Positions 8,249-24,291 of a DNA stretch of 64,000 nt are shown here, piece by piece (the stretch's first letter is position 1; every line of letters starts with the position of its first letter). Both the position numbers and the translations under genes were made by a program. Source of the DNA: Rubrobacter tropicus (GTDB lineage Bacteria > Actinomycetota > Rubrobacteria > Rubrobacterales > Rubrobacteraceae); contig NZ_CP045119.1 of assembly GCF_011492945.1 (NCBI RefSeq), positions 124,001 through 188,000 on the forward strand. Reading direction: 5' to 3'. Under the pieces are notes generated by a model that worked only from the letters and a program-made list of their open reading frames with translations, did not search any database and was not told where the DNA came from.

Positions 8249-9892
8249 GTGCCTGAACTCGTCCTCGGACCCGTGTTGCGCTACGCCGGACCGTCCGAGG
8301 CAACGGTCTGGGTCGAGACGGATGCAGCCTGCGAGGTCGAGGTCCTGGGCTGCTCCTCGCCCACGTTTCGCGTGGGCGGCCATCACTACGCCCTGGTCCA
8401 CGTAACGGGCCTACAGCCAGGCGAAACGTACGAGTACGAGGTCAGGCTCGACGGCGAGCCGGTCTGGCCCGAGACCGGCTCGCCTTTCCCCCCGAGCGTC
8501 GTGCGCGCGGCGCGCGAGGGCGAAGCCGTCAGGCTCGTCTTCGGCTCGTGCCGCATCTCGGCCCCCCACGAGGAGCCTTACACCCTGGACCTTTCGGAGG
8601 ACGCGAGGGGGCTCGGCGTGGACGCCCTGTACGCGACGGCGATGAGGCTCGGGGGCAAGCCGTCCGGAGAGTTGCCGCACGCGTTGGTGCTCCTGGGGGA
8701 CCAGATCTACGCGCACAAACCCCCCTTCGAAACCCTCGAGTTCATCCGTTCGCGCCGCGACACCGGCGACGCCCCGGGCGAGGTCGTGGCGGACTTCGAG
8801 GAGTACGCCCGCATCTACCGCGACGCCTGGGGGGACCCCGCGATCCGCTGGCTCCTCTCCACGGTTCCCTCGGCCATGATCTTCGACGACCACGAGGTCG
8901 GCGACGACTGGAACGTATCTGCCGCCTGGGTCGAGGAGATGCGCCACCGGCCCTACTGGAACGACCAGATAGCCGGCGGCCACGTCTCGTATCTGATCTA
9001 CCAGCACCTCGGAAATCTCTCCCCCGAAGAACTGAAAGACAACGACCTCTACGCCGACATTAGAACCGCCGACGACGCCTGGCCCCTCCTCCGGGAGGCG
9101 GCCTACCGATCCCACCGGGACTCCACGGTGGCGCGCTGGAGCTTCTGCCGCGACCTCGGCAAAGTCCGCCTGCTCGCGATCGACTCCAGGGGAGGAAGGG
9201 TGCTGGACGAGGGCAGCCGCTCCATGGTTGACGACGAAGAGTGGTCCTGGATAGAGGACAAGGCCGCCGGCGACTTCGACCACCTCCTCCTCGCGACTTC
9301 ACTCCCCCTGATGCTCGGCCCCGGCATGCACCACCTCCAGGCCTGGAACGAGAGGCTCTGCTCCGGCGCCTGGGGCAAACGCGCCGCGAAGTGGTCAGAG
9401 AACCTCCGCCGCTCCCAGGACCTCGACCACTGGGCCTCGTTTCACGGCTCCTTCACGCAGATGGCCGACCTTATAAAGGGCGTCGCCACAGGCCGGAAGG
9501 GGGGCCCGCCCTCGACGGTCCTCGTCCTCTCCGGCGACGTCCACCACGGCTACCTCGCCGAGGCGGACTTCCGGGACGCGGAACCCGCCAGCCGGATCTA
9601 CCAGGCCGTCTGCTCGCCCTTACGCAACGCCCTCCCCGAAGAAAAGTCTTTTCTGCAAGAGAAGGCCTGGAACCGGATAGTCGCCGTACTCGCGCGCCTG
9701 CTCGCCCGCCTGGCCGGCGTAAGGCCCGAAAACCTCACCTGGAGCCTCACCCACGAAGACCCCTTCTTCGCCAATCAGGTCGCCACGCTCGAACTCGACG
9801 GCCCGAACGCGGCCATTACCTTCGAGAAAGTTGTCCTCGACGCCTCGAACGAGCCGGACCTGAAGAGGCTGTACTCGCGCGGGCTGGCATAG
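8249..9892 (+). CDS. PhoD-like alkaline phosphatase/phosphodiesterase family protein
   Basis: A metallophosphatase-superfamily protein of about 547 residues with the PhoD order of motifs. An N-terminal beta domain opens with LGPVLRYAGPSEATVWVETD. Then come VFGSCR, VLLGDQIYA (first metal Asp), IFDDHEVGDDW (Asp-Asp-His) and VLSGDVHHGYL (terminal Asp/His pair). PhoD enzymes hydrolyse phosphate mono- or diesters with Ca/Fe. No Tat or Sec signal is visible, so it is probably cytoplasmic, unlike secreted PhoD. I prefer the GTG at 8249 because homology begins there; the frame stays open to an ATG at 8162. A strong hairpin follows the stop. Confidence 0.85.
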   Translation: MPELVLGPVLRYAGPSEATVWVETDAACEVEVLGCSSPTFRVGGHHYALVHVTGLQPGETYEYEVRLDGEPVWPETGSPFPPSVVRAAREGEAVRLVFGSCRISAPHEEPYTLDLSEDARGLGVDALYATAMRLGGKPSGELPHALVLLGDQIYAHKPPFETLEFIRSRRDTGDAPGEVVADFEEYARIYRDAWGDPAIRWLLSTVPSAMIFDDHEVGDDWNVSAAWVEEMRHRPYWNDQIAGGHVSYLIYQHLGNLSPEELKDNDLYADIRTADDAWPLLREAAYRSHRDSTVARWSFCRDLGKVRLLAIDSRGGRVLDEGSRSMVDDEEWSWIEDKAAGDFDHLLLATSLPLMLGPGMHHLQAWNERLCSGAWGKRAAKWSENLRRSQDLDHWASFHGSFTQMADLIKGVATGRKGGPPSTVLVLSGDVHHGYLAEADFRDAEPASRIYQAVCSPLRNALPEEKSFLQEKAWNRIVAVLARLLARLAGVRPENLTWSLTHEDPFFANQVATLELDGPNAAITFEKVVLDASNEPDLKRLYSRGLA

Positions 9893-9894
9893 GA

Positions 9895-9923
9895 GGAGCC
9901 GGGGCAACGACGGCCCCGGCTCC
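9895..9923. terminator. Terminator-like hairpin after the PhoD gene
   Basis: A perfect 11-bp stem, GGAGCCGGGGC (9895-9905) with GCCCCGGCTCC (9913-9923) and a 7-base loop, begins two bases after the phoD-like stop codon. The T-rich tail is weak (CTTCTCT). Confidence 0.7.
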
Positions 9924-9968
9924 GGCCTTCTCTAAAGCGGTTTGCAGAGAGGTAGAACCTCCCTGCAA

Positions 9969-10063
9969 AGCTGTCAGCCATCAGCGGTCAGCTTTCAGCA
10001 AGAGCAAAGAAGCTGACCGCTGAAAGCGGAGGCGAAGCCGGAGCGGGCTGACTGCTGACCGCT
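9969..10063. repeat. Intergenic repeat, copy d
   Basis: A nearly palindromic member of the GCTGA family. Arms CTGTCAGCC/GCGGTCAGC and GCTGACCGCTGAAAGC flank the AGCGGAGGCGAAGCCGGAGC module. It ends exactly at the stop codon (10064-10066) of the minus-strand DUF4383 gene. Confidence 0.8.
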
Positions 10064-10459
10064 TTAGTGGGTGGGGGAGATACGGCGTCCGGTGGCCTGC
10101 GGAGCGAAGCCGAGGTAGGCCGCGAACGCGCCAACGACGAGATGTAGCAGGTTGTCCGCCAGGTTCACGGCGAAGATGCCAAGCAACTTCTCGCCGAATA
10201 CGAGCGCCGGGATAAAGCCGAGGATGCCCACCGCCAGATAAACCACGCCCAGCACCTGGCAATATAGCCTCGCCCGATCCCAATAAAAGGCGGCGAGACC
10301 CAGAGCGCCGACCAGCAGGTGGATCAGGTTGTGCGTGGCGTCGACGGCGAAGATGCCTAACAGGTACTCCCCGCCACCCGTGGTCAGGCCGGGTATGAAC
10401 CCGAGGATGCCCACCACCAGAAAAACGATACCGACCACGAGTGCGAAAGTGCGAACCAT
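10064..10459 (-). CDS. DUF4383 family membrane protein
   Basis: A 131-residue integral membrane protein with four hydrophobic segments. It is an internal duplication: VVGILGFIPGLTTGGGEYLLGIFAVDATHNLIHLLVGALGL is echoed by AVGILGFIP...LLGIFAVNLADNLLHLVVGAFA. This pattern, with the N-[L/I]-[I/L]-H motif, is typical of DUF4383, a family of unknown function common in actinobacteria. ATG start with a GAGGAGG ribosome site. A larger related protein is at 56192-56812. Confidence 0.82.
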   Translation of the reverse strand: MVRTFALVVGIVFLVVGILGFIPGLTTGGGEYLLGIFAVDATHNLIHLLVGALGLAAFYWDRARLYCQVLGVVYLAVGILGFIPALVFGEKLLGIFAVNLADNLLHLVVGAFAAYLGFAPQATGRRISPTH

Positions 10460-10757
10460 CGGACCTCCTCTAAAGACTCGACCACGAACTGATGCCCGAA
10501 CCCGCCCACCCGGCCTCGCAAGGCGCCTCCTCCGGAGACGTGTGGCTTCCGGAAGGCGTGAAGAAAGGACGGGAAGGCGCGCGCCGGTTCGGCGGAGATC
10601 GAACAGAGAACCCCTTTCGGCTTCGGCCGATCATCATCGAATGCCGTCTTGGGCGAACCTTGCGCGCTTCGTGTCCCACACCATCACCAGCTTCCCAAAC
10701 ATATAGTTTTTTCGAGGGAGATTGGTGAACGATGCGTTAAGAGTATTGTTACGAAAA
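10460..10757. other. Intergenic stretch with no recognisable gene
   Basis: About 300 bases between the DUF4383 start and the 3' end of the IclR gene. It contains a short TCGGC-TTCG-GCCGA hairpin (about 10617-10630). Its last 70 bases are AT-rich (around 10695-10770, with ATAGTTTTTTCGAG and AAAATTATTTGTTG), which is unusual for this genome. No convincing coding potential. Confidence 0.5.
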
Positions 10758-11468
10758 TTATTTGTTGTAAAGAGCTTCTATCCGGCGCGCCGCCTCCACC
10801 ACGAGGTGCGACAGCCGCCGGCCCGGCCGGTCGCCCAGGCGCGAGATAGGACCGCTAGCGCAGACGGCGGCTCTTAGCTTCCCGTCGGAGTCGAAGACCG
10901 GCGCGCTCACGCTCGCCACGCCGGCCTCCCGCTCGGCCACGCTCTCGGCCCAGCCTCGGGCCCGGACCTCCGCCAGTTCCCCCGCCTCGTGGTCGGTCTC
11001 TTCCGACCACGCCAGGAGCACCTTGCCCCCGGAACCGTGTCCCAGCGGCAGCACGGCGCCCACGGGCACCGCATCCCTCAGCCCTCCGCCCGTCCGCTCC
11101 ACGGAGGCCACGCACACCCGGCGATCCCCCTCCCTCACGTAGAGCTGCGTGCTCTCCCCGGTCCCGTCCCTGAGCCCCTCCAGAACCGGCGTGGCGACCC
11201 CGACCAGATCCGACCCCACCGTCCCACCCCCCCAACTCAACAACCGCGGCCCGAGCAGGTAACGGCCTTCTTCCCGCGCCACCAGCCCGTGCGCCTCCAA
11301 AGCCGCCAACAACCTGTACGCCGTCGGACGCGCCAACCCGGTCCCCTTCACCACCCCGGCCAGGCTCGCGGGCCCGTCCTCGGCCAGAAAGGATAGAATC
11401 CCAACCGCCTTGTCCAGGACCCCGACCCCGCTCTTGCCCCCGACGCCCGTCTCTCTTATACTGTCCAT
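10758..11468 (-). CDS. ndgR: IclR-family regulator, NdgR/LtbR-like
   Basis: A 236-residue IclR-type regulator. An N-terminal winged helix (about residues 15-70: GVGVLDKAVGILSFL...TGLARPTAYRLLAALEAHGLV) is followed by the IclR effector domain (ESTQLYVREGDRRVCVASVER, VPVGAVLPLGHGSGGKVLLAW, REAGVASVSAPVFD). The sequence closely resembles actinobacterial NdgR/LtbR, which control leuCD and other amino-acid genes and are usually divergent from leuCD. Here it is divergent from a methyltransferase-leuCD operon, with a palindrome between. Autoregulation and control of leuCD are inferred. Confidence 0.88.
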   Translation of the reverse strand: MDSIRETGVGGKSGVGVLDKAVGILSFLAEDGPASLAGVVKGTGLARPTAYRLLAALEAHGLVAREEGRYLLGPRLLSWGGGTVGSDLVGVATPVLEGLRDGTGESTQLYVREGDRRVCVASVERTGGGLRDAVPVGAVLPLGHGSGGKVLLAWSEETDHEAGELAEVRARGWAESVAEREAGVASVSAPVFDSDGKLRAAVCASGPISRLGDRPGRRLSHLVVEAARRIEALYNK

Positions 11469-12306: not shown

Positions 12307-13016
12307 CCGTCGGGGCGCTCTTCGATGAGGCGGCCGGCGGGTACGACGAGGCCCGCCGCAGGCTCGTGCCTGGCCTCGACGAGCTTTACGGGGCCGTGTT
12401 GGGGAGCATCCCTTTCGGGGTGGATCGACCAATAAAGGTGCTGGACCTCGGGGCCGGGACCGGGTTGTTGAGCGCCGTGGTCGCGGACCGTTTCCCGCGG
12501 GCCAGGGTTACGCTCGTCGACCTCTCCGTCGAGATGTTGCGCGTCGCGCGCCGGCGCTTCGCGCCCGAGACGAACCGCTTCGAGTTTCGCGTCATGGACT
12601 TCGCCCGCAAGGAGCTTCCCGCGGGCTACGACCTCGTCGTCTCGGCGCTCTCCATCCACCACCTCACGGACGGGGATAAGCGGGAGACGTTCGAGAAGGT
12701 CCACGGCTCGCTCGTCTTGGGCGGGTGCTTCGTCAACCTGGACCAGGTACGGGGCGAGACGCCGGAGGAGGAGGCGCGCTACGAGGAGTGGTGGCAGAGG
12801 AGCGCGCGCGAGGCAGGCGCCACCGAGGAGGATCTTGCCTCCGCGTTCAGGCGAATGAGGGCCGATAAGAACGCGACCCTCAAAGACCAGCTCCGGTGGC
12901 TGGAGGACGCCGGGTTCGGGGACGTACGGAGCCGGCACGACGGCAACCGTTTCGCGGTCTACGCGGGCCGCAAGAAGGCAGAGTATTCGTACAACGGAAA
13001 GGAACGCGATGGCTAG
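12303..13016 (+). CDS. Class I SAM-dependent methyltransferase
   Basis: A 237-residue methyltransferase. It has motif [21 protein letters not shown] (about residues 41-60), [18 protein letters not shown], and the [26 protein letters not shown] post-motif region typical of UbiE/BioC-like small-molecule methyltransferases. The GTG start overlaps the stop of the preceding gene (GTGA), and its end overlaps leuC by eight bases. Translation is therefore coupled between the regulator-proximal methyltransferase and leuCD. The substrate is unknown. It differs from its neighbour and is not a recent duplicate. Confidence 0.82.
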
Positions 13017-14412
13017 TCCGAAGACGCTCGTAGAGAAAGTGTGGGAGAAGCACGTCGTGAGGAGCGCCGAGGGCGAGCCCGACCTCCTCTACGTGGACCT
13101 GCACCTCGTCCACGAGGTGACGAGCCCGCAGGCTTTCGAGGGCCTGAGGCTCGCGGGCCGCAAGGTACGCCGCCCCGACCTCACCTACGCCACCATGGAC
13201 CACAACGTGCCGACCACGCCCGTGGGCATGCCCATCAAGGACGAGGTCTCCAAAAAGCAGATGGAGGCGCTGGAGACGAACTGCGAGGAGTTCGGGATCG
13301 AGCTCAACAAGTGGGGCGCCATCGGCCAGGGCATCGTCCACATCATAGGCCCGGAGACGGGATTGACCCAGCCCGGCCTCGTCATCGTCTGCGGCGACTC
13401 CCACACGGCTACCCACGGCGCCTTCGGGGCGCTCGCCTTCGGCATCGGCACGAGCGAGGTCGAGCACGTGCTTGCGACCCAGACCCTTCCCCAGAGCCGG
13501 CCGAAGACGATGGCCGTCACCGTGGAGGGCGAGTTGCCCGCGGACGTGACGGCCAAGGACCTGATGCTCGGCATCCTGAATAGGATTGGCACGGGCGGCG
13601 GCGTGGGCCACGTCATCGAGTACAGGGGCGAGGCTGTCCGTTCCCTCTCGATGGAGGGCCGCATGACCATCTGCAACATGTCCATAGAGGGCGGCGCCAG
13701 GGCGGGCCTCATAGCCCCCGACGAGACGACCTTCGAGTACCTCAAAGGCCGCGAGTACGCCCCGAAGGGCGGGGAGTGGGACCGGGCCGTCGAGGAGTGG
13801 AAGGCGCTGCGCAGCGACGACGGGGCCGAGTACGACAAGGAAGTCGTAATCCACGCAGAAGACCTCGTCCCCTACGTCTCCTGGGGGACCACGCCGGCCC
13901 AGACCGTGGGCCTCGACGACGTCGTCCCCGAGCCCGAGAACGACGGCCACAGGCGCGCCTTGAAGTACATGGACCTGGAACCGGGGACGCCCATCCGGGA
14001 GATCGAGGTGGACACCGTCTTTCTCGGCTCCTGCACCAACGCCCGCATCGAGGATTTGCGGGCCGCCGCGAAGGTGCTCGAAGGCCAGAAGGTGAAAGAG
14101 GGCATAAGGGCGATGGTCGTGCCGGGCTCCATGCGCGTCAAGAAGCAGGCCGAAGAAGAGGGCCTCATGGAGATCTTCACGGAGGCCGGCTTCGACTGGC
14201 GCAACGCGGGGTGTTCGATGTGCCTCGGCATGAACCCGGACATCCTGCAGCCCGGCGAGCGCTGCGCCTCTACATCCAACCGCAACTTCGAGGGGCGCCA
14301 GGGCAAGGGCGGCAGGACGCACCTGGTCAGCCCCGCCGTGGCGGCCGCGACTGCCGTGATGGGAAGGTTCGCCTCTCCAAGCGAACTCGGCGTACCCGTG
14401 GAGGTGCTCTAG
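13009..14412 (+). CDS. leuC: 3-isopropylmalate dehydratase large subunit
   Basis: A 467-residue aconitase-family enzyme that, with LeuD, isomerises 2- to 3-isopropylmalate in leucine synthesis. The [4Fe-4S] ligands are present: one cysteine in [13 protein letters not shown] and two in [12 protein letters not shown]. The substrate/aconitase motif TMDHNVPT is near residue 62, and [14 protein letters not shown] is intact. Length is normal. The ATG overlaps the upstream methyltransferase, and its TAG overlaps the leuD GTG (TAGTG), so leuC and leuD are tightly coupled. Confidence 0.97.
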
Positions 14413-14999
14413 TGGAAGCCGTAAAGACCGTAGAAGGAAAAGCCCTCCCGCTCGGGTGGGACGACGTGGACACGGACCAGATCGTGCCCTCCGACGCCCT
14501 CAAGCGCATAGAGCGGACGGGCTTCGGCCAGTTCCTCTTCTCGGCCTGGCGCGAGGACCCGGACTTCGTCCTCAACAAGCCCGAGCACGAGGGTGCCGTG
14601 GTGCTCCTCGCGGGCCAGAACTTCGGGAGCGGGTCCAGCAGGGAGCACGCGCCCTGGGCGATCCAGGACTACGGCTTCGGCGCCGTCATAGCCCCGTCCT
14701 TCGCCGACATTTTCAAGAACAACTGCGCCAAGATAGGGCTCCTGGCCGTGGAGCTGTCCGAAGAGGCGGTGGAGAAGCTCCTCGAAATGGTCCGCGAGGA
14801 CCCGGAGACCGTCGTCTCCGTGGACCTCGAAGGCCGCGTCGTAAAAGCCCCGGGCTTCGAGGAGCCCTTCGCCTTCGACAACTTCGCCCGCTACCGCCTC
14901 CTCAACGGCCTCGACGACATCGCCCTGACGCTGACGCACGAGGACGACCTCGAAGCCTTCGAGAAGACCCGTCCCTCACACCTGCCGAGCGTGCTGTAG
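14412..14999 (+). CDS. leuD: 3-isopropylmalate dehydratase small subunit
   Basis: A 195-residue swivel-domain partner of LeuC. The diagnostic motifs WDDVDTDQIVPSDALKRIERTGFGQFLF, NFGSGSSREHAPWAI, and APSFADIFKNNCAKIGLL are all present. The GTG start overlaps the leuC stop. A GC-rich palindrome (CCGGCGCGCCGG) follows the stop near 15002 and could help terminate the operon, although no T-run follows. Confidence 0.97.
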   Translation: MEAVKTVEGKALPLGWDDVDTDQIVPSDALKRIERTGFGQFLFSAWREDPDFVLNKPEHEGAVVLLAGQNFGSGSSREHAPWAIQDYGFGAVIAPSFADIFKNNCAKIGLLAVELSEEAVEKLLEMVREDPETVVSVDLEGRVVKAPGFEEPFAFDNFARYRLLNGLDDIALTLTHEDDLEAFEKTRPSHLPSVL

Positions 15000-15062: not shown

Positions 15063-15485
15063 GTGGCGAAAAAGACGGACAAGGCCGTAAAGGATCTCGC
15101 CAAAGAAGTAAAGAAGCTTCGCAAGGAGAACGAGAAGCTCGCCAAGAGCATCGAAAAGACACGCGAAGACCAGGCCGAATCGCACCGGGAGATCCTCGCC
15201 CTCCTCAACGAGCGTCCGACCGCGGGAGAAGCCGGCGCGGACGAGGTCGAAGAACACCCCGATCACGACGAAAACGGGGGCTTCGTGACCGCCGAGACGG
15301 AGGAGGATGGCGGCGACGTCCCGGAAGTCTCGGCGGAAGCCCAGCAAGACCACCAGGAAGAACCGGAGGTTACTGACGCCGCCAAACGCCGGGCGAAAGA
15401 ACTCGGTGTGGACCCGACGAGCGTGAAGGGCACGGGCTCCGGCGGGCGCGTCCTGGTAAAGGACGTGGAGGCCGCGGCGAGCTAG
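15063..15485 (+). CDS. Orphan coiled-coil protein with E3-binding (PSBD) domain
   Basis: A 140-residue charged protein. Residues 1-45 are a lysine/glutamate-rich helix likely to form a coiled coil (VKDLAKEVKKLRKENEKLAKS). An acidic linker follows (about 55-100), then a C-terminal peripheral-subunit-binding domain: DAAKRRAKELGVDPTSVKGTGSGGRVLVKDV. This domain normally sits in dihydrolipoamide acyltransferases and binds E1/E3; here there is no lipoyl or catalytic domain. Similar small domains in actinobacteria also occur in DNA-binding proteins such as Lsr2. GTG start with a short GGCGG/GAGGG site. The function is not known. Confidence 0.72.
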   Translation: MAKKTDKAVKDLAKEVKKLRKENEKLAKSIEKTREDQAESHREILALLNERPTAGEAGADEVEEHPDHDENGGFVTAETEEDGGDVPEVSAEAQQDHQEEPEVTDAAKRRAKELGVDPTSVKGTGSGGRVLVKDVEAAAS

Positions 15486-15502: not shown

Positions 15503-16399
15503 CTACACCGAGGCTTCGCGCTCGAAATCTGGGACCACGGCGAGATGCTTTCGGTGGTATGCAAGGTGTCGAAGACTGATGTGATGGTGTCTGTGAACGG
15601 TGAGGTCGTCCTTATCGGCCCCGATCAGGGATAGATCCTTGGCGACAGAGATGGCGCCGTTGTCGAAGAGCACGTGGTGGTTTGGACACAGGCACAGAAT
15701 GTTGTCTTCAGTGTCTGGGCCATCATGCGGAGCACCAAGCGGACGAATGTGCGCGGCCTCTGAGTATGGCCCTGCGGGGCATGATAGGCGGGTTCCACAT
15801 ATTTGACACCTGTGCTTGTAGAGCGCTTTGATCTTCCTCGCCTTCGCCGAGTCTCTTACGATCCGTGACACCCGCATTTCTTGGCGTCGGGCAACCGAGT
15901 ACTCGGCCGGATCTTCGCGAACCCCCTGACCGGCTGTTACCTTCTGCGGGATCTTCACCAAACGGAAGCGCCAGATCTCGAAGCCAGATCTGCCTGGTTC
16001 GTGCCAGAACCCTTCGACCGCGTAGAGCCCGTCGTAGCTGTAGCCGAAGGGCGGCGAGTAGCGCGAATCGTGTTTGGAGCCGCGGATAACGCGAACCGGC
16101 AGGCCGTTCTGCTTGCTAAGCGCGAGGGCCCTGTTTCCATGGGAGAAAGGCTGGTCGTGGTCTTGCCGGCCAGTGCTCTGGTTTCTTCCTCCGTAGCCGG
16201 TATAGATAATCAGGTCTCCGTCATCGGCATCGTCTTCGTATCCGCCGGAGAGAACTATAGATTCTGCGCCCTCCGTCTGGCTTCCGGATATGCCGGCTTG
16301 GATCGGCCGATGCACCCCGCTCTCGCGGAGTTCGGCACGACTCTCGAACAGGCTTCCTTCGGGGTACCCAGGAATATGTCCGAAGATTCGTTCCGCCAC
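15503..16399 (-). CDS. SRA-HNH modification-dependent endonuclease (Type IV-like)
   Basis: A 298-residue nuclease. The N-terminal half is a YDG/SRA domain (IFGHIPGYPEGSLFESRAEL, GSQTEGAESIVLSGGYEDD, DLIIYTGYGG, LPVRVIRGSKHDSRYSPP, YDGLYAVEGFW). SRA domains flip and read 5-methylcytosine-type bases. The C-terminal part is a zinc-type HNH domain: YKHRCQICGTRL, EAAHIRPLGAPHDGPDTEDNILCLCPNHHVLFDNG. Known enzymes of this architecture cut modified DNA. Its region is visibly less GC-rich than its neighbours and codon use is looser, suggesting transfer. It has no methylase partner. Confidence 0.9.
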   Translation of the reverse strand: MAERIFGHIPGYPEGSLFESRAELRESGVHRPIQAGISGSQTEGAESIVLSGGYEDDADDGDLIIYTGYGGRNQSTGRQDHDQPFSHGNRALALSKQNGLPVRVIRGSKHDSRYSPPFGYSYDGLYAVEGFWHEPGRSGFEIWRFRLVKIPQKVTAGQGVREDPAEYSVARRQEMRVSRIVRDSAKARKIKALYKHRCQICGTRLSCPAGPYSEAAHIRPLGAPHDGPDTEDNILCLCPNHHVLFDNGAISVAKDLSLIGADKDDLTVHRHHHISLRHLAYHRKHLAVVPDFEREASV

Positions 16400-16526: not shown

Positions 16527-17441
16527 ATGATCGAAGTCGCCATAATGATCGAGGGTCAGTACGGCATCAACTGGGAGCGCTGGAAGCGTCTGGGCCGGAC
16601 CGTCGAGGACCTGGGGTACGCCGGTTTGTACCGTTCCGACCACTTTACGGAGCCGGAAGGCCCGCTCGAGGACGCCCTTGAGTTGTGGACGTCGCTTGCG
16701 TGGCTGGCTGATAACACGGAGAGGATCGAGTTCGGGCCGCTCGTCTCGCCGGTCTCTTTCCGCCACCCGGTGATCACGGCCTGGCAGGCCTCGGCGGTGG
16801 ACAACCTCGCTGGCGGACGCCTCAGGCTCGGCGTCGGGGCGGGCTGGCAAAAGCGGGAACACGACGCCTTCGGCTTCGACCTGCTCGACACCGACCGCCG
16901 CTTCGCCCGCTTCGAGGAGGGGTTGGAGGTCATCACCCGGCTCGTCCGTAGTGAGAGACCGGTCTCTTTTGCCGGCGAGTTCTACCGGCTCGAAGATGCC
17001 GTGCTGACGGTGCGCTCGCCGAGGCCTGGCGGGATTCCGGTGGTCATCGGTGGCAACGGCCCGCGCCGGACGCTGCCACTGACGGCACGATACGCCGACG
17101 AGTGGAACGCGGTCTTCCTGACGGCCGGGAAGTTCGCGGACCTCAACGCCGGGCTGGACGGGCTGTTGCGGGAGGCCGGGCGTCAGCCGGAGGAGGTGCA
17201 CCGGACCCTGATGACGCGGGGCGTCTTCGGCCGCACGGAAGCTGAGGTGGACGGCAAGCTGGGCGGCGTCCCGCGCGAAGACCTGGACGCCGCCGTCATC
17301 GTCGGGACGGCGGACGAGTTCGTCGACAGGCTCGGTCGTCTGGAAGAGGCCGGGGTGCGGCGGGTGATGCTGCAGTGGCTGGAGGCGGACGACGTCGACG
17401 GCCTGGAGGCGATGGCGGGGTCCGTTCTGCCCCAGCTTTGA
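16527..17441 (+). CDS. LLM-class (luciferase-like) flavin/F420-dependent oxidoreductase
   Basis: A 304-residue TIM-barrel oxidoreductase of the bacterial-luciferase-like superfamily. It shows GYAGLYRSDHF, TSLAWLADNTERIEFGPLVSPVSFRHPVITAWQASAVDNLAGGRLRLGVGAGWQKREHDAFG and PVVIGGNGPRRTLPLTARYADEWN, the usual cofactor and phosphate-binding regions. Actinobacterial members often use F420, others FMN; the choice cannot be settled here. ATG start preceded by a GGGGTAACGG segment. The glyoxalase-like gene follows after 47 bases and may be co-transcribed. Confidence 0.88.
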   Translation: MIEVAIMIEGQYGINWERWKRLGRTVEDLGYAGLYRSDHFTEPEGPLEDALELWTSLAWLADNTERIEFGPLVSPVSFRHPVITAWQASAVDNLAGGRLRLGVGAGWQKREHDAFGFDLLDTDRRFARFEEGLEVITRLVRSERPVSFAGEFYRLEDAVLTVRSPRPGGIPVVIGGNGPRRTLPLTARYADEWNAVFLTAGKFADLNAGLDGLLREAGRQPEEVHRTLMTRGVFGRTEAEVDGKLGGVPREDLDAAVIVGTADEFVDRLGRLEEAGVRRVMLQWLEADDVDGLEAMAGSVLPQL

Positions 17442-21114: not shown

Positions 21115-22230
21115 GTGACCGACGACGGGCTCTTTCAGATGGACCTCAATTTGCACCCGAACGAGGCTTCCGGGCTGCTGGTAATGGAGGACACGGCCTT
21201 GCTTGGGGCCCAGGGGTGGGACCTCGGGTTCTGGGCTGTTCTCGACGAGGGTGAGATCGAGGACTGCGTCGCCGCCATCGGCCACCGGAGCGGCTCCGCG
21301 CAGGACGAGGGCTGGGAGATAGAGCGGCTGCACGCCCGCGTGAGCGGGGACGCGGGCAAGACCGAGGACGCGGAGGCGATCACGCGCGACCACGTAAGCG
21401 GAATGGTCTACATCCTGGGCTCCCACTTCGGCAGCAAGTCAGGACCGCTGCAGCCCAAGAGGGGCTTCGTCGCCCGCTTCCGGGAGGCCGAGGTCGGGCA
21501 CGTCACCGAAGACCCGGCGATGAACCTGGAGGTCGCCCGCCGCTCCTTCGCCCTCCACCGCGCCGTCAACGACGCCTTCGAGGAGCACGGGATAGACCTG
21601 ATCCCGCTAGGAAAACAGGCCCGCGAAGCCTTTATCGACGCGACCATAAAACGCGGCAAGAAGGAGAAGAAGAAGTGGTCCGGCCTCGTGCGCGAGGACG
21701 ACTACCCCATCAACATAGAAGGCGCGGCCTTCCGCCAGGACGGGTCGCTGCTCCTCGGTCTCCGCTTCCCGACCGCCGCCGACGGAAACCCCCTGCTAGT
21801 CGAGATCAGGGGCATAGACCGCCTCTTCGACGAGGACGGCCTGCCCGAGGTCCGCGGTTTCTGGACCGTCGATGCCGTCGGCAAGGGTGGCGACATCGCG
21901 GGCGTGCGCGACCTCGCCCTCCATCTCACCGGGAACGGCGAGGAGCTACACGTAGTAACGGGCAACGTAGACAGCCGGGACAAGGGGAGCGTCCTGATCC
22001 AGGACTACCCCGGCGGCAGGGAGACCGTCGCAACCCACTTCCGCTGCGCCATGCCCGCCGACGCCCACTCCGGCCACCTGGAAGGCGAGTTCGTCCGCGA
22101 GTTCCCGAACCTGCCGCGCGTCGAGGGCCTCGCCGTCGCAGACAACGACCGCGCCTACTACGTCACAGACGAGGACGAGGGCGTGCATCTGCGCCTGACC
22201 CGGTTTCTGGAGGGCAGCGCCAGAGCCTGA
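21115..22230 (+). CDS. DUF3616-like protein
   Basis: A 371-residue soluble protein with beta-propeller-like repeats: SGLLVMEDTALLGAQGW, INIEGAAFRQDGSLLLGLRFPTAADGNPLLVEIR, GVRDLALHLTGNGEELHVVTGNVD and RVEGLAVADNDRAYYVTDED. The EG[AL]A and RDLA blocks resemble DUF3616, a family of unknown function. The GTG at 21115 is preceded by a perfect AGGAGG. No secretion signal. A lysine-rich loop (KRGKKEKKKW) near residue 185 is unusual. Confidence 0.58.
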   Translation: MTDDGLFQMDLNLHPNEASGLLVMEDTALLGAQGWDLGFWAVLDEGEIEDCVAAIGHRSGSAQDEGWEIERLHARVSGDAGKTEDAEAITRDHVSGMVYILGSHFGSKSGPLQPKRGFVARFREAEVGHVTEDPAMNLEVARRSFALHRAVNDAFEEHGIDLIPLGKQAREAFIDATIKRGKKEKKKWSGLVREDDYPINIEGAAFRQDGSLLLGLRFPTAADGNPLLVEIRGIDRLFDEDGLPEVRGFWTVDAVGKGGDIAGVRDLALHLTGNGEELHVVTGNVDSRDKGSVLIQDYPGGRETVATHFRCAMPADAHSGHLEGEFVREFPNLPRVEGLAVADNDRAYYVTDEDEGVHLRLTRFLEGSARA

Positions 22231-22243
22231 GTACGTTCGGGCG

Positions 22244-22657
22244 TCAGTCCGGCTCGCGCCACTGGACGTCGAGCTTCCGGAAATCTTTGTCGAAGGAAGC
22301 TACACCGCCGCCTTGAGAACGGGCCGTTCCTGCGAGCAGCGCATCTGCGAAGTCTACGTTGCTGGAAGTCATGGTTTCTAGTGCCCGGATCACGTCCCCG
22401 GCACTTTCGGGTCTCAGCGCACGATGCTCCAGAAGGGGGATGAGAGCGCCGGAGATCTCACCCTTCGAGCGCCCGTAGAAGGACTGAAGCACCCAAACTA
22501 TCTCCGCCACCACCACGGAATGCACTCGAAGCGGAACCTTGTCTCGCTCCGCTTTCTCCAGCAACCTGGACGCCCGCTCTGCGAGCTCTGGAGGATCGTT
22601 CGTCAGAAAGCGTAACAACACGTTCGCGTCGACCCACCAGGAAGCTTCTTCGCTCAT
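22244..22657 (-). CDS. vapC: VapC-like PIN-domain ribonuclease toxin
   Basis: A 137-residue PIN-domain protein. The acidic catalytic residues appear as WVDANVLLRFL (Asp near 9), VVAEIVWVL (Glu), VDFADALLAG (Asp) and SFDKDF (Asp). These coordinate Mg/Mn for RNA cleavage, commonly of tRNA or rRNA. The start overlaps the stop of the upstream AbrB-type gene by four bases, the normal VapBC arrangement. The region is less GC-rich than average here, consistent with mobility of toxin-antitoxin modules. Confidence 0.88.
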   Translation of the reverse strand: MSEEASWWVDANVLLRFLTNDPPELAERASRLLEKAERDKVPLRVHSVVVAEIVWVLQSFYGRSKGEISGALIPLLEHRALRPESAGDVIRALETMTSSNVDFADALLAGTARSQGGGVASFDKDFRKLDVQWREPD

Positions 22658-22908
22658 GGTCCTTCGAGAGTCTTACGAACGAGATACTGGCGTGCTGCTT
22701 CCCGTTCGGCCTCTTTGCCCGGATACGGACGGGTGGCGGGCAGACTACCCATAAGCTCCCCCAGGCCCTTGCGACGCTCGACCCTGAGACGCACGAAGTC
22801 ATCCTCGAACTCGAACACAACCCGGTCCCCGCTTTTCAAACCCAAACGATCCCGCACGTCCTTGGGGATCGTTAATTGTCCCTTACTCGTCAAGGTTGCC
22901 CTTATCAA
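22654..22908 (-). CDS. vapB: VapB-like antitoxin with SpoVT/AbrB domain
   Basis: An 84-residue antitoxin. The N-terminal swapped-hairpin DNA-binding domain reads IRATLTSKGQLTIPKDVRDRLGLKSGDRVVFEF; the C-terminal half is charged and would wrap the PIN toxin. I place the start at TTG (22906-22908), six bases after AAGGAG; an in-frame ATG twelve codons upstream (22944) is possible but has no clear ribosome site. The protein would neutralise VapC and autoregulate the pair. Confidence 0.83.
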   Translation of the reverse strand: MIRATLTSKGQLTIPKDVRDRLGLKSGDRVVFEFEDDFVRLRVERRKGLGELMGSLPATRPYPGKEAEREAARQYLVRKTLEGP

Positions 22909-23010
22909 AACCGCACTCCTTACTTCAATGACGCATCTTACCACGGGAAGATGCGGCGAATGACGCGGCGCGAAACGTTCTGGAAGGTCTTCGCCAAGAG
23001 GTTCGGGAAT

Positions 23011-24291
23011 TTACGCCCTGACCGGCGCCTGCTCCAGGTAGGGCACGGTCATGGGACCTTCGGGGAGGACGGCTATGGGAGCGTCCTGGCCTACGCTCTC
23101 CAGCTCCCGGGCGATGCGGGCCGCTATGTCCTCTACGGGTTCGAGGTGGACGTTGCGGACGTCTTCGGGCCCTATCTCGCTGTGGAGGGCGACGCGGGCC
23201 TTTTGCAGGATGTGGGCGAAGAGCTGGACCTGCCACTGGTCGTACTTCTGGAAGCCTGGGGCGTAGATGGTTTCGAGCATGGCCTCGGGGGAGTCGTGCT
23301 CTAAGAGCATGTCGCGGAAGTTGCCGTGGGCCGGGAAGCCGTCGTTGCAGCGGGCGACGGAGATGATGAGGCCGCCGTCCGAGACGATCTGGGCGGCGGC
23401 GGACATGCCTTTTACGGCCTGGTAGAGATTCTGGTCGAGGGGGTAGCCGCCGTTGGTGGTTACGACGATGGGATACTCGTGCTCGCAGGGGACCATGACG
23501 GAGGATTTGCTCGCCTCGCAGCCCTTCTCGTGGGCGGTTATGGGGTCGCCGCAGTAGAAGCCCGTGATCTCGCGTTCCCGGTTCAGGGTCACGTTTATGC
23601 AGAAGTCGAGCGGCAGGAGGGAGCCGTTGGCGCGGATCTGGTCCTGCGTCGGGTTGTCCTCCATGACGCCCCAGGTGCTCCGTTCGTGCCCGATGACCGC
23701 GGCCCTGTGGTAGTGCATGATCGAACCCACGTCGGCCACGGCGGGGAAGATGCCCTTGTACCCGCCGCTGAACCCGGCCATGAAGTGCGGCTCGATGAAA
23801 CCGAGCACGACGCGCCGGTCGGCCTCGACGTACTCGCGGTTCATGTAGACGTCCCGCCCCTCCGGCGTCTTCCCGGCAAGGGCGAGCGTGTTCGGGTCGT
23901 GGGCGTCGTGGTTGACGACTCGGTAGGTCTCGTAGACGTCTTTTCCGACCATCGCTACCAACTCCTCTTCGGTGTTGGCGCGGTGGGAGCCCGTGCCGTT
24001 GACGATGGTGACGTTCTCCGGCGGGACGTGGGAGAGCTCCTCGAAGAGCCAGGGCAGGAGGCGTTCTCGGGGCAGGGCGCGGGTGATGTCCGGGATCACG
24101 ACGGCGAGTCGCTCGCCGGCGCCGACGAGCTCCTTCAGCGGGGCCGAGTCGATGGGTTCCCGCGCCGCCTCCCTGAAGGCCGCCGCCTCGTCCGGCAGCC
24201 CCGCCTCCGGCCTGGGCGCGAGCACCGTTACGTTGGAGGACGGGATCTCTACTTCCAGGTTACCCGTCCCGTACTGCAATTGCGCTTCCAC
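23011..24291 (-). CDS. LarA-family (nickel-pincer) lactate racemase homologue
   Basis: A 426-residue protein of the LarA superfamily. The residues corresponding to the nickel-pincer and catalytic histidines are visible: NGTGSHRANTEEE, FIEPHFMAGFSGGYKGIFPA (His and the pyridinium-cofactor lysine in GGYKG) and MHYHRAA. LarA-family members racemise or epimerise alpha-hydroxyacids. The cofactor is made by LarB, LarC and LarE, none of which is in this window. Substrate may not be lactate. ATG start. It stands alone, separated from VapB and the PRC-barrel gene. Confidence 0.87.
   Translation of the reverse strand: MEAQLQYGTGNLEVEIPSSNVTVLAPRPEAGLPDEAAAFREAAREPIDSAPLKELVGAGERLAVVIPDITRALPRERLLPWLFEELSHVPPENVTIVNGTGSHRANTEEELVAMVGKDVYETYRVVNHDAHDPNTLALAGKTPEGRDVYMNREYVEADRRVVLGFIEPHFMAGFSGGYKGIFPAVADVGSIMHYHRAAVIGHERSTWGVMEDNPTQDQIRANGSLLPLDFCINVTLNREREITGFYCGDPITAHEKGCEASKSSVMVPCEHEYPIVVTTNGGYPLDQNLYQAVKGMSAAAQIVSDGGLIISVARCNDGFPAHGNFRDMLLEHDSPEAMLETIYAPGFQKYDQWQVQLFAHILQKARVALHSEIGPEDVRNVHLEPVEDIAARIARELESVGQDAPIAVLPEGPMTVPYLEQAPVRA

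Follow-up and report, generated by a model that had tools for sequence, protein, structure and literature searches.

The closest described relative of the enzyme discussed here is TagI from Thermocrispum agreste (PDB 6ghs), which cuts DNA containing 5-methylcytosine (5mC) or 5-hydroxymethylcytosine (5hmC), rejects glucosyl-5hmC, and restricts phage T4gt in E. coli (PMC6212794). Enzymes of the TagI type form dimers through their HNH domains and prefer RYN/RY contexts. ScoA3IV (Sco5333) and TbiR51I are described as further members of the two-domain SRA-HNH family (PMC6212794). Two other known nucleases differ in their domain organization. ScoMcrA combines SRA and HNH domains with an extra sulfur-binding domain (SBD-SRA-HNH) and would have the dependence on 5mC or 5hmC in common with the enzyme reported here, as judged by homology (PMC7461809), whereas a Pfam search of the latter revealed no sulfur-binding domain. 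EcoKMcrA (6ghc) shares the HNH nuclease domain (E 0.0021), but reads the modification by a different domain (NEco; PMC7145662) and lacks an SRA domain.

The gene for the new enzyme is located at positions 15503-16399 on the minus strand of the analyzed window, a stretch of 64,000 nucleotides from Rubrobacter tropicus. As judged from the list of open reading frames, it starts with GTG and codes for 298 amino acids without any internal stop, in exact agreement with the coordinates of the original prediction. The SRA domain covers residues 6-152 (15944-16384, minus strand; PF02182, SAD_SRA, E 5.7e-50) and the HNH_2 nuclease domain residues 198-252 (15644-15808, minus strand; PF13391, E 6.6e-13), both matches exceeding the curated Pfam cut-offs. 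The order of an N-terminal SRA and a C-terminal HNH domain in a single chain is that of TagI, which was also the best match of a phmmer search against the PDB (residues 3-290, E 1.5e-80), followed by the SRA domains of UHRF1 from about E 1e-34. Over 286 aligned columns, the sequences of the two proteins are 48.3% identical. This architecture and the homology to TagI support the predicted assignment as a nuclease dependent on modified cytosine, and by its sequence the protein is intact and belongs, as an ordinary representative, to the SRA-HNH Type IV nucleases of the TagI type. PADLOC produced weak matches only (HNH model, 2e-5; Type IV methyl-directed model, 5e-4; SduA, 0.2), promoter and terminator scans stayed near the chance level, and an AlphaFold model calculated from a six-row alignment was too poor to be used (mean pLDDT 38). 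No treatment of an SRA-HNH gene in Rubrobacter was found among the matches listed in a full-text literature search.

The functional residues were mapped from TagI via an alignment of 18 rows, taking their roles from PMC6212794. The pocket for the flipped base is retained in Tyr54, Asp57, Tyr66, and Ile37 (Tyr55, Asp58, Tyr67, and Ile38 in TagI), as are the thumb residue Gln34 (Gln35), the HNH residues His217, Asn233, and His242 together with the metal ligand Asp246 (His229, Asn245, His254, and Asp258), and the dimer residue Asn247 (Asn259). The zinc ligands Cys198, Cys201, Cys238, and His241 align with Cys210, Cys213, Cys250, and Asp253 of TagI, the exchange of Asp for His (CxxD to CxxH) being the only change at the zinc site; a CxxH variant occurs in another member of the TagI family, as stated in the same source (PMC6212794). 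Further differences from TagI are a shorter interdomain linker and the replacement of the thumb residue His33 by Pro32 and of Gln226 by Glu214, both of which are seen in most rows of the alignment. Both proteins are alike in length, and the finger loop is also short and TagI-like, with GRQ in place of KKQ and without the NKR motif of UHRF1, which would favor recognition in a broad sequence context over strict CpG specificity. With 48% identity to TagI, the context preference of the new enzyme may nevertheless differ. Through the homology to TagI, the predicted target can be narrowed to 5mC and 5hmC, excluding glucosylated DNA, and it is very probable that the enzyme cleaves foreign DNA in which cytosine is methylated or hydroxymethylated.

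By analogy to TagI, the SRA domain would flip out and read 5-methyl- or 5-hydroxymethylcytosine, and the HNH domains of two subunits would dimerize and nick or cut the DNA nearby with the aid of a divalent metal, so that phage or plasmid DNA with modified cytosine may be cut in a defense role. The own DNA would be spared because the genome does not code for a recognizable cytosine-C5 methyltransferase: no match to PF00145 was found in this genome (4.58 Mb, 97.66% complete) by a search whose positive control matched 10 of 14 known genomes. The enzyme thus appears compatible with its host, as expected of a Type IV nuclease, and the situation fits the argument of the TagI authors for their own host (PMC6212794). 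Taken together, it is highly probable (about 0.85) that the gene codes for a TagI-type Type IV nuclease directed against 5mC- or 5hmC-containing DNA, which has long been resident downstream of leuD and has been inherited mainly vertically and lost repeatedly.

As a variation of this assignment, the target might be a mark or context narrower than bulk 5mC or 5hmC, permitting coexistence with host methylation. This is suggested by genome G028, which contains an open SRA-HNH frame as well as two PF00145 matches, one of them of full length; the methyltransferase looks intact, has a GPPC motif, and adjoins a frame which we take to be Vsr-like. The nuclease of G028 carries Met at the position of the thumb Gln and His at that of the dimer-interface Asn, and one might speculate that these changes alter its activity. 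Since G028 carries both genes, self-avoidance is not strict; this genome is a candidate for the coexistence of such a nuclease with cytosine methylation. The lack of an anti-association points in the same direction: the predicted avoidance of C5 methyltransferases was not found either in the class (1/10 carriers vs. 5/29 non-carriers, p 0.51) or in a phylum sample of 396 genomes (1/10 vs. 97/386, p 0.25). Note that any PF00145 match was present in 8 of the 39 genomes of the class and that six were counted after dropping G005 and G006. G005 combines an intact SRA-HNH gene with the truncated start of a C5 methyltransferase (L045:1489-1812, 107 amino acids, GPPCQGF motif), a picture suggestive of methyltransferase loss, and the match in G006 is weak (4e-7), in a frame without a listed start of 100 amino acids. 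The enzyme encoded in the window, however, is TagI-like in its pocket residues and thumb Gln and differs only in the second thumb residue (His33 to Pro32), which renders a narrower target rather unlikely.

The nuclease gene lies between ordinary metabolic genes, as had been proposed. To its left, on the plus strand, the conserved locus is anchored by a gene which we take from its protein family to be leuC, coding for the large subunit of 3-isopropylmalate dehydratase (13009-14412; 82-95% identical to the copies of other genomes, among the matches listed), and by leuD for the small subunit (14370-14999; Aconitase_C, PF00694, E 2.5e-27, and synteny), which is located downstream of the 3' end of the nuclease gene. 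The true start of leuD is probably near 14412, with 14370 representing the frame as scanned. A gene for a small protein with an E3-binding domain (15063-15485, plus strand; PF02817, E 2.4e-10) lies between leuD and the nuclease gene in this lineage and occupies the corresponding place behind leuD in genomes G005 and G006. On the right-hand side, the locus is anchored by a gene for a luciferase-like monooxygenase (16527-17441, plus strand; PF00296, E 4.1e-46, and synteny), and a glyoxalase-like protein is encoded among the further neighbors. A Pfam scan of five neighbors did not reveal a second defense gene, so the nuclease is indeed solitary at its locus, as predicted, but not in the genome, where a candidate for a second modification-reading nuclease is encoded about 293 kb away.

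SRA-HNH genes are present in 10 of the 39 genomes of the class, including G030 with damaged copies and G009 with a copy cut by a contig end, which leaves eight genomes with an intact open frame. In eight of the ten carriers (G000, which is the genome of the window, G005, G007, G009, G018, G019, G030, and G038), the gene lies on the strand opposite to leuD and at most about 2.1 kb downstream of it; the two displaced copies, likewise on the opposite strand, are about 7.7 kb (G028) and 14.3 kb (G020) downstream of leuD. For comparison, leuC was detected at E 1e-150 in 29 of the 39 genomes. Within the phylum sample, a threshold of E 1e-30 or better yielded ten matching genomes, which are the ten carriers of the class. 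The draft genome G030 contains three damaged copies (L035, L036, and L037): the copy at the leu site is frameshifted, and the other two have a TAG and a TGA stop, respectively; the copy with the TAG also has the first HNH His replaced by Tyr, two of the three are on contigs without leu genes, and the damage may be due to assembly error.

The gene tree has the same topology as that of rpoB for the seven leu-site genomes that could be compared (log-likelihood difference 4e-5, p-AU 0.497), G030 being left out because PF00562 gave no match there, and congruence with a leuC+leuD+IclR tree was not rejected for eight copies either (p-AU 0.304). When the displaced copies of G020 and G028 were added, congruence was rejected against rpoB (p-AU 0.033) as well as against leuC+leuD+IclR (p-AU 0.0098), which indicates that these two copies have been displaced by transfer or represent hidden paralogy. 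The varied insertion sites and the disagreement with core-gene trees expected of a recently transferred island gene were not observed, conflict arising only when G020 and G028 were included. An earlier rpoB tree which had rejected congruence turned out to be an artefact, as the longest open frames had been wrong choices for G028 and G038 and gave branches near 5. Between the window's genome and its nearest carrier, G005, the gene shows a dS of 0.638, compared to 0.26-0.67 for five neighboring genes, and its dN/dS of 0.149 indicates purifying selection.

A scar of gene loss is apparent in the sister genome G006, where a stub of the 3' end follows the same E3-binding-domain gene (E 6e-4). The protein match consists of two pieces in different frames (residues 266-273 and 274-290), and the DNA match extends over 74 bases at 76%. 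This was the one credible stub in a search of 22 downstream gaps for remnants; the only other nuclease match in these gaps, in G034 (E 0.62), was taken as noise. Mapping presence and absence on the tree of the leu locus required 9 changes, and 405 of 500 label shuffles were as low, so there is no extra clustering, and parsimony alone cannot separate gain from loss. Loss is favored over gain by the conserved position together with the agreement of the trees and the stub in G006, and we infer that most absences are losses, an absence from an incomplete draft genome being weak evidence in this respect. The observations support vertical residence with losses at the leu site, for which the simplest account is that the gene was gained long ago and then lost several times: the ancestor of the sampled carriers would already have had the gene downstream of leuD, from where it would have been passed on mainly vertically and lost repeatedly. 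Uniform presence in all relatives with vertical inheritance had been named beforehand as an outcome incompatible with an origin by transfer; the vertical inheritance is seen at the locus, but presence is patchy and includes one scar of loss.

The fixed site would not amount to strict descent if the leu locus were a recombination hot spot at which alleles are swapped among Rubrobacteraceae via the conserved leu flanks. Such an exchange would be in line with the low GC content which the gene shows at the leu site in each of the six genomes measured, with the two displaced copies that conflict with the tree, and with the three damaged copies of G030, two of which are apart from any leu genes. Against this, the leu-site copies of seven genomes match the tree of the unlinked rpoB gene exactly, and we regard allele exchange as quite unlikely to explain the pattern.

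The gene is less GC-rich than its surroundings, as stated in the original prediction (59.1% vs. 68.0% for the whole window), with only 278 of 63,104 segments of equal length being lower, and its third-position GC is 0.67 vs. 0.78-0.92 in seven other genes measured. Two further GC-poor patches occur in the window at 9883-10817 and 22116-23179 (60% or lower over 897 bases). Low GC relative to the flanks recurs in 7 of the 8 intact copies of the class (e.g., 0.591 vs. 0.668 in the window's own genome and 0.500 vs. 0.682 in G038, the exception being G028 with 0.702 vs. 0.701) and in all four copies measured outside of the class, three from Pontibacter and one from Streptomyces. Being a trait of most copies, the low GC content does not date the arrival of the gene and would have persisted without amelioration over a long residence.

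Outside of the family, the nearest relatives found are those from Pontibacter (Bacteroidota; about 54-55%) and one on a Janthinobacterium plasmid (54.5%). Six of 13 loci on viral contigs match across both domains (47-53%). In two of them (L119 and L123) a phage integrase gene lies about 1.2-1.4 kb away from the SRA-HNH gene, L123 additionally contains a Peptidase_S24/HTH repressor-like gene nearby, and in L121 and L122 an integrase frame is situated where the contig ends. Since SRA-HNH genes evidently travel, their staying at a fixed site in Rubrobacteraceae is notable, although it does not set this gene apart in kind. The proposal that the gene is a recently acquired defense gene with its low GC as the trace of a foreign donor, to which the GC and third-position GC values, the patchy presence (10/39), and the distant and mobile relatives just mentioned would lend themselves, is largely refuted for the Rubrobacter lineage and very improbable, in view of the single site in 8/10 carriers, the rpoB-like tree of seven genomes, the neighbor-like dS, the stub in G006, and the low GC shared by 7/8 intact copies.

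The enzyme itself is of a known kind; what is unusual is how clearly its inheritance looks vertical. The locus provides a clean case of misleading GC content, appearing foreign by composition and long resident by site, tree, dS, and deletion scar, and the intact, frameshifted, stub, and empty states at one site form a natural series for weighing the costs of a nuclease of this type against its benefits.

The second nuclease candidate of the same genome (G000:C1:432808-433785; L002:916-1896) comprises 326 amino acids, matches a sulfur-binding domain (8h0l, SBDHga1, E 1.8e-12), has an HNH_2 domain, and may represent a phosphorothioate-dependent nuclease. Such SBD-HNH genes occur in 12 of the 39 genomes of the class, namely in 7/10 SRA-HNH carriers vs. 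5/29 others (Fisher p 0.0039); on independent tree pairs, the co-occurrence was not significant (median p 0.125). A tentative and still doubtful generalization would be that a Type IV nuclease has become a long-term resident of one family, staying at a single site under purifying selection across the sampled genera, with repeated loss and accompanied by a phosphorothioate-reading SBD-HNH nuclease. The family would then rely on a permanent defense with two sensors and free of methylation against modified DNA, instead of a turnover of mobile defense genes. In G018, the SBD-HNH gene (249335-250216) directly adjoins a short fragment that resembles dndC and contains a stop (C1:250228-250416, L114). 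This fragment is the sole dndC match in the 39 genomes, at a score below the family cut-off, and gives the impression of a phosphorothioation gene that has decayed beside a nuclease reading phosphorothioates.
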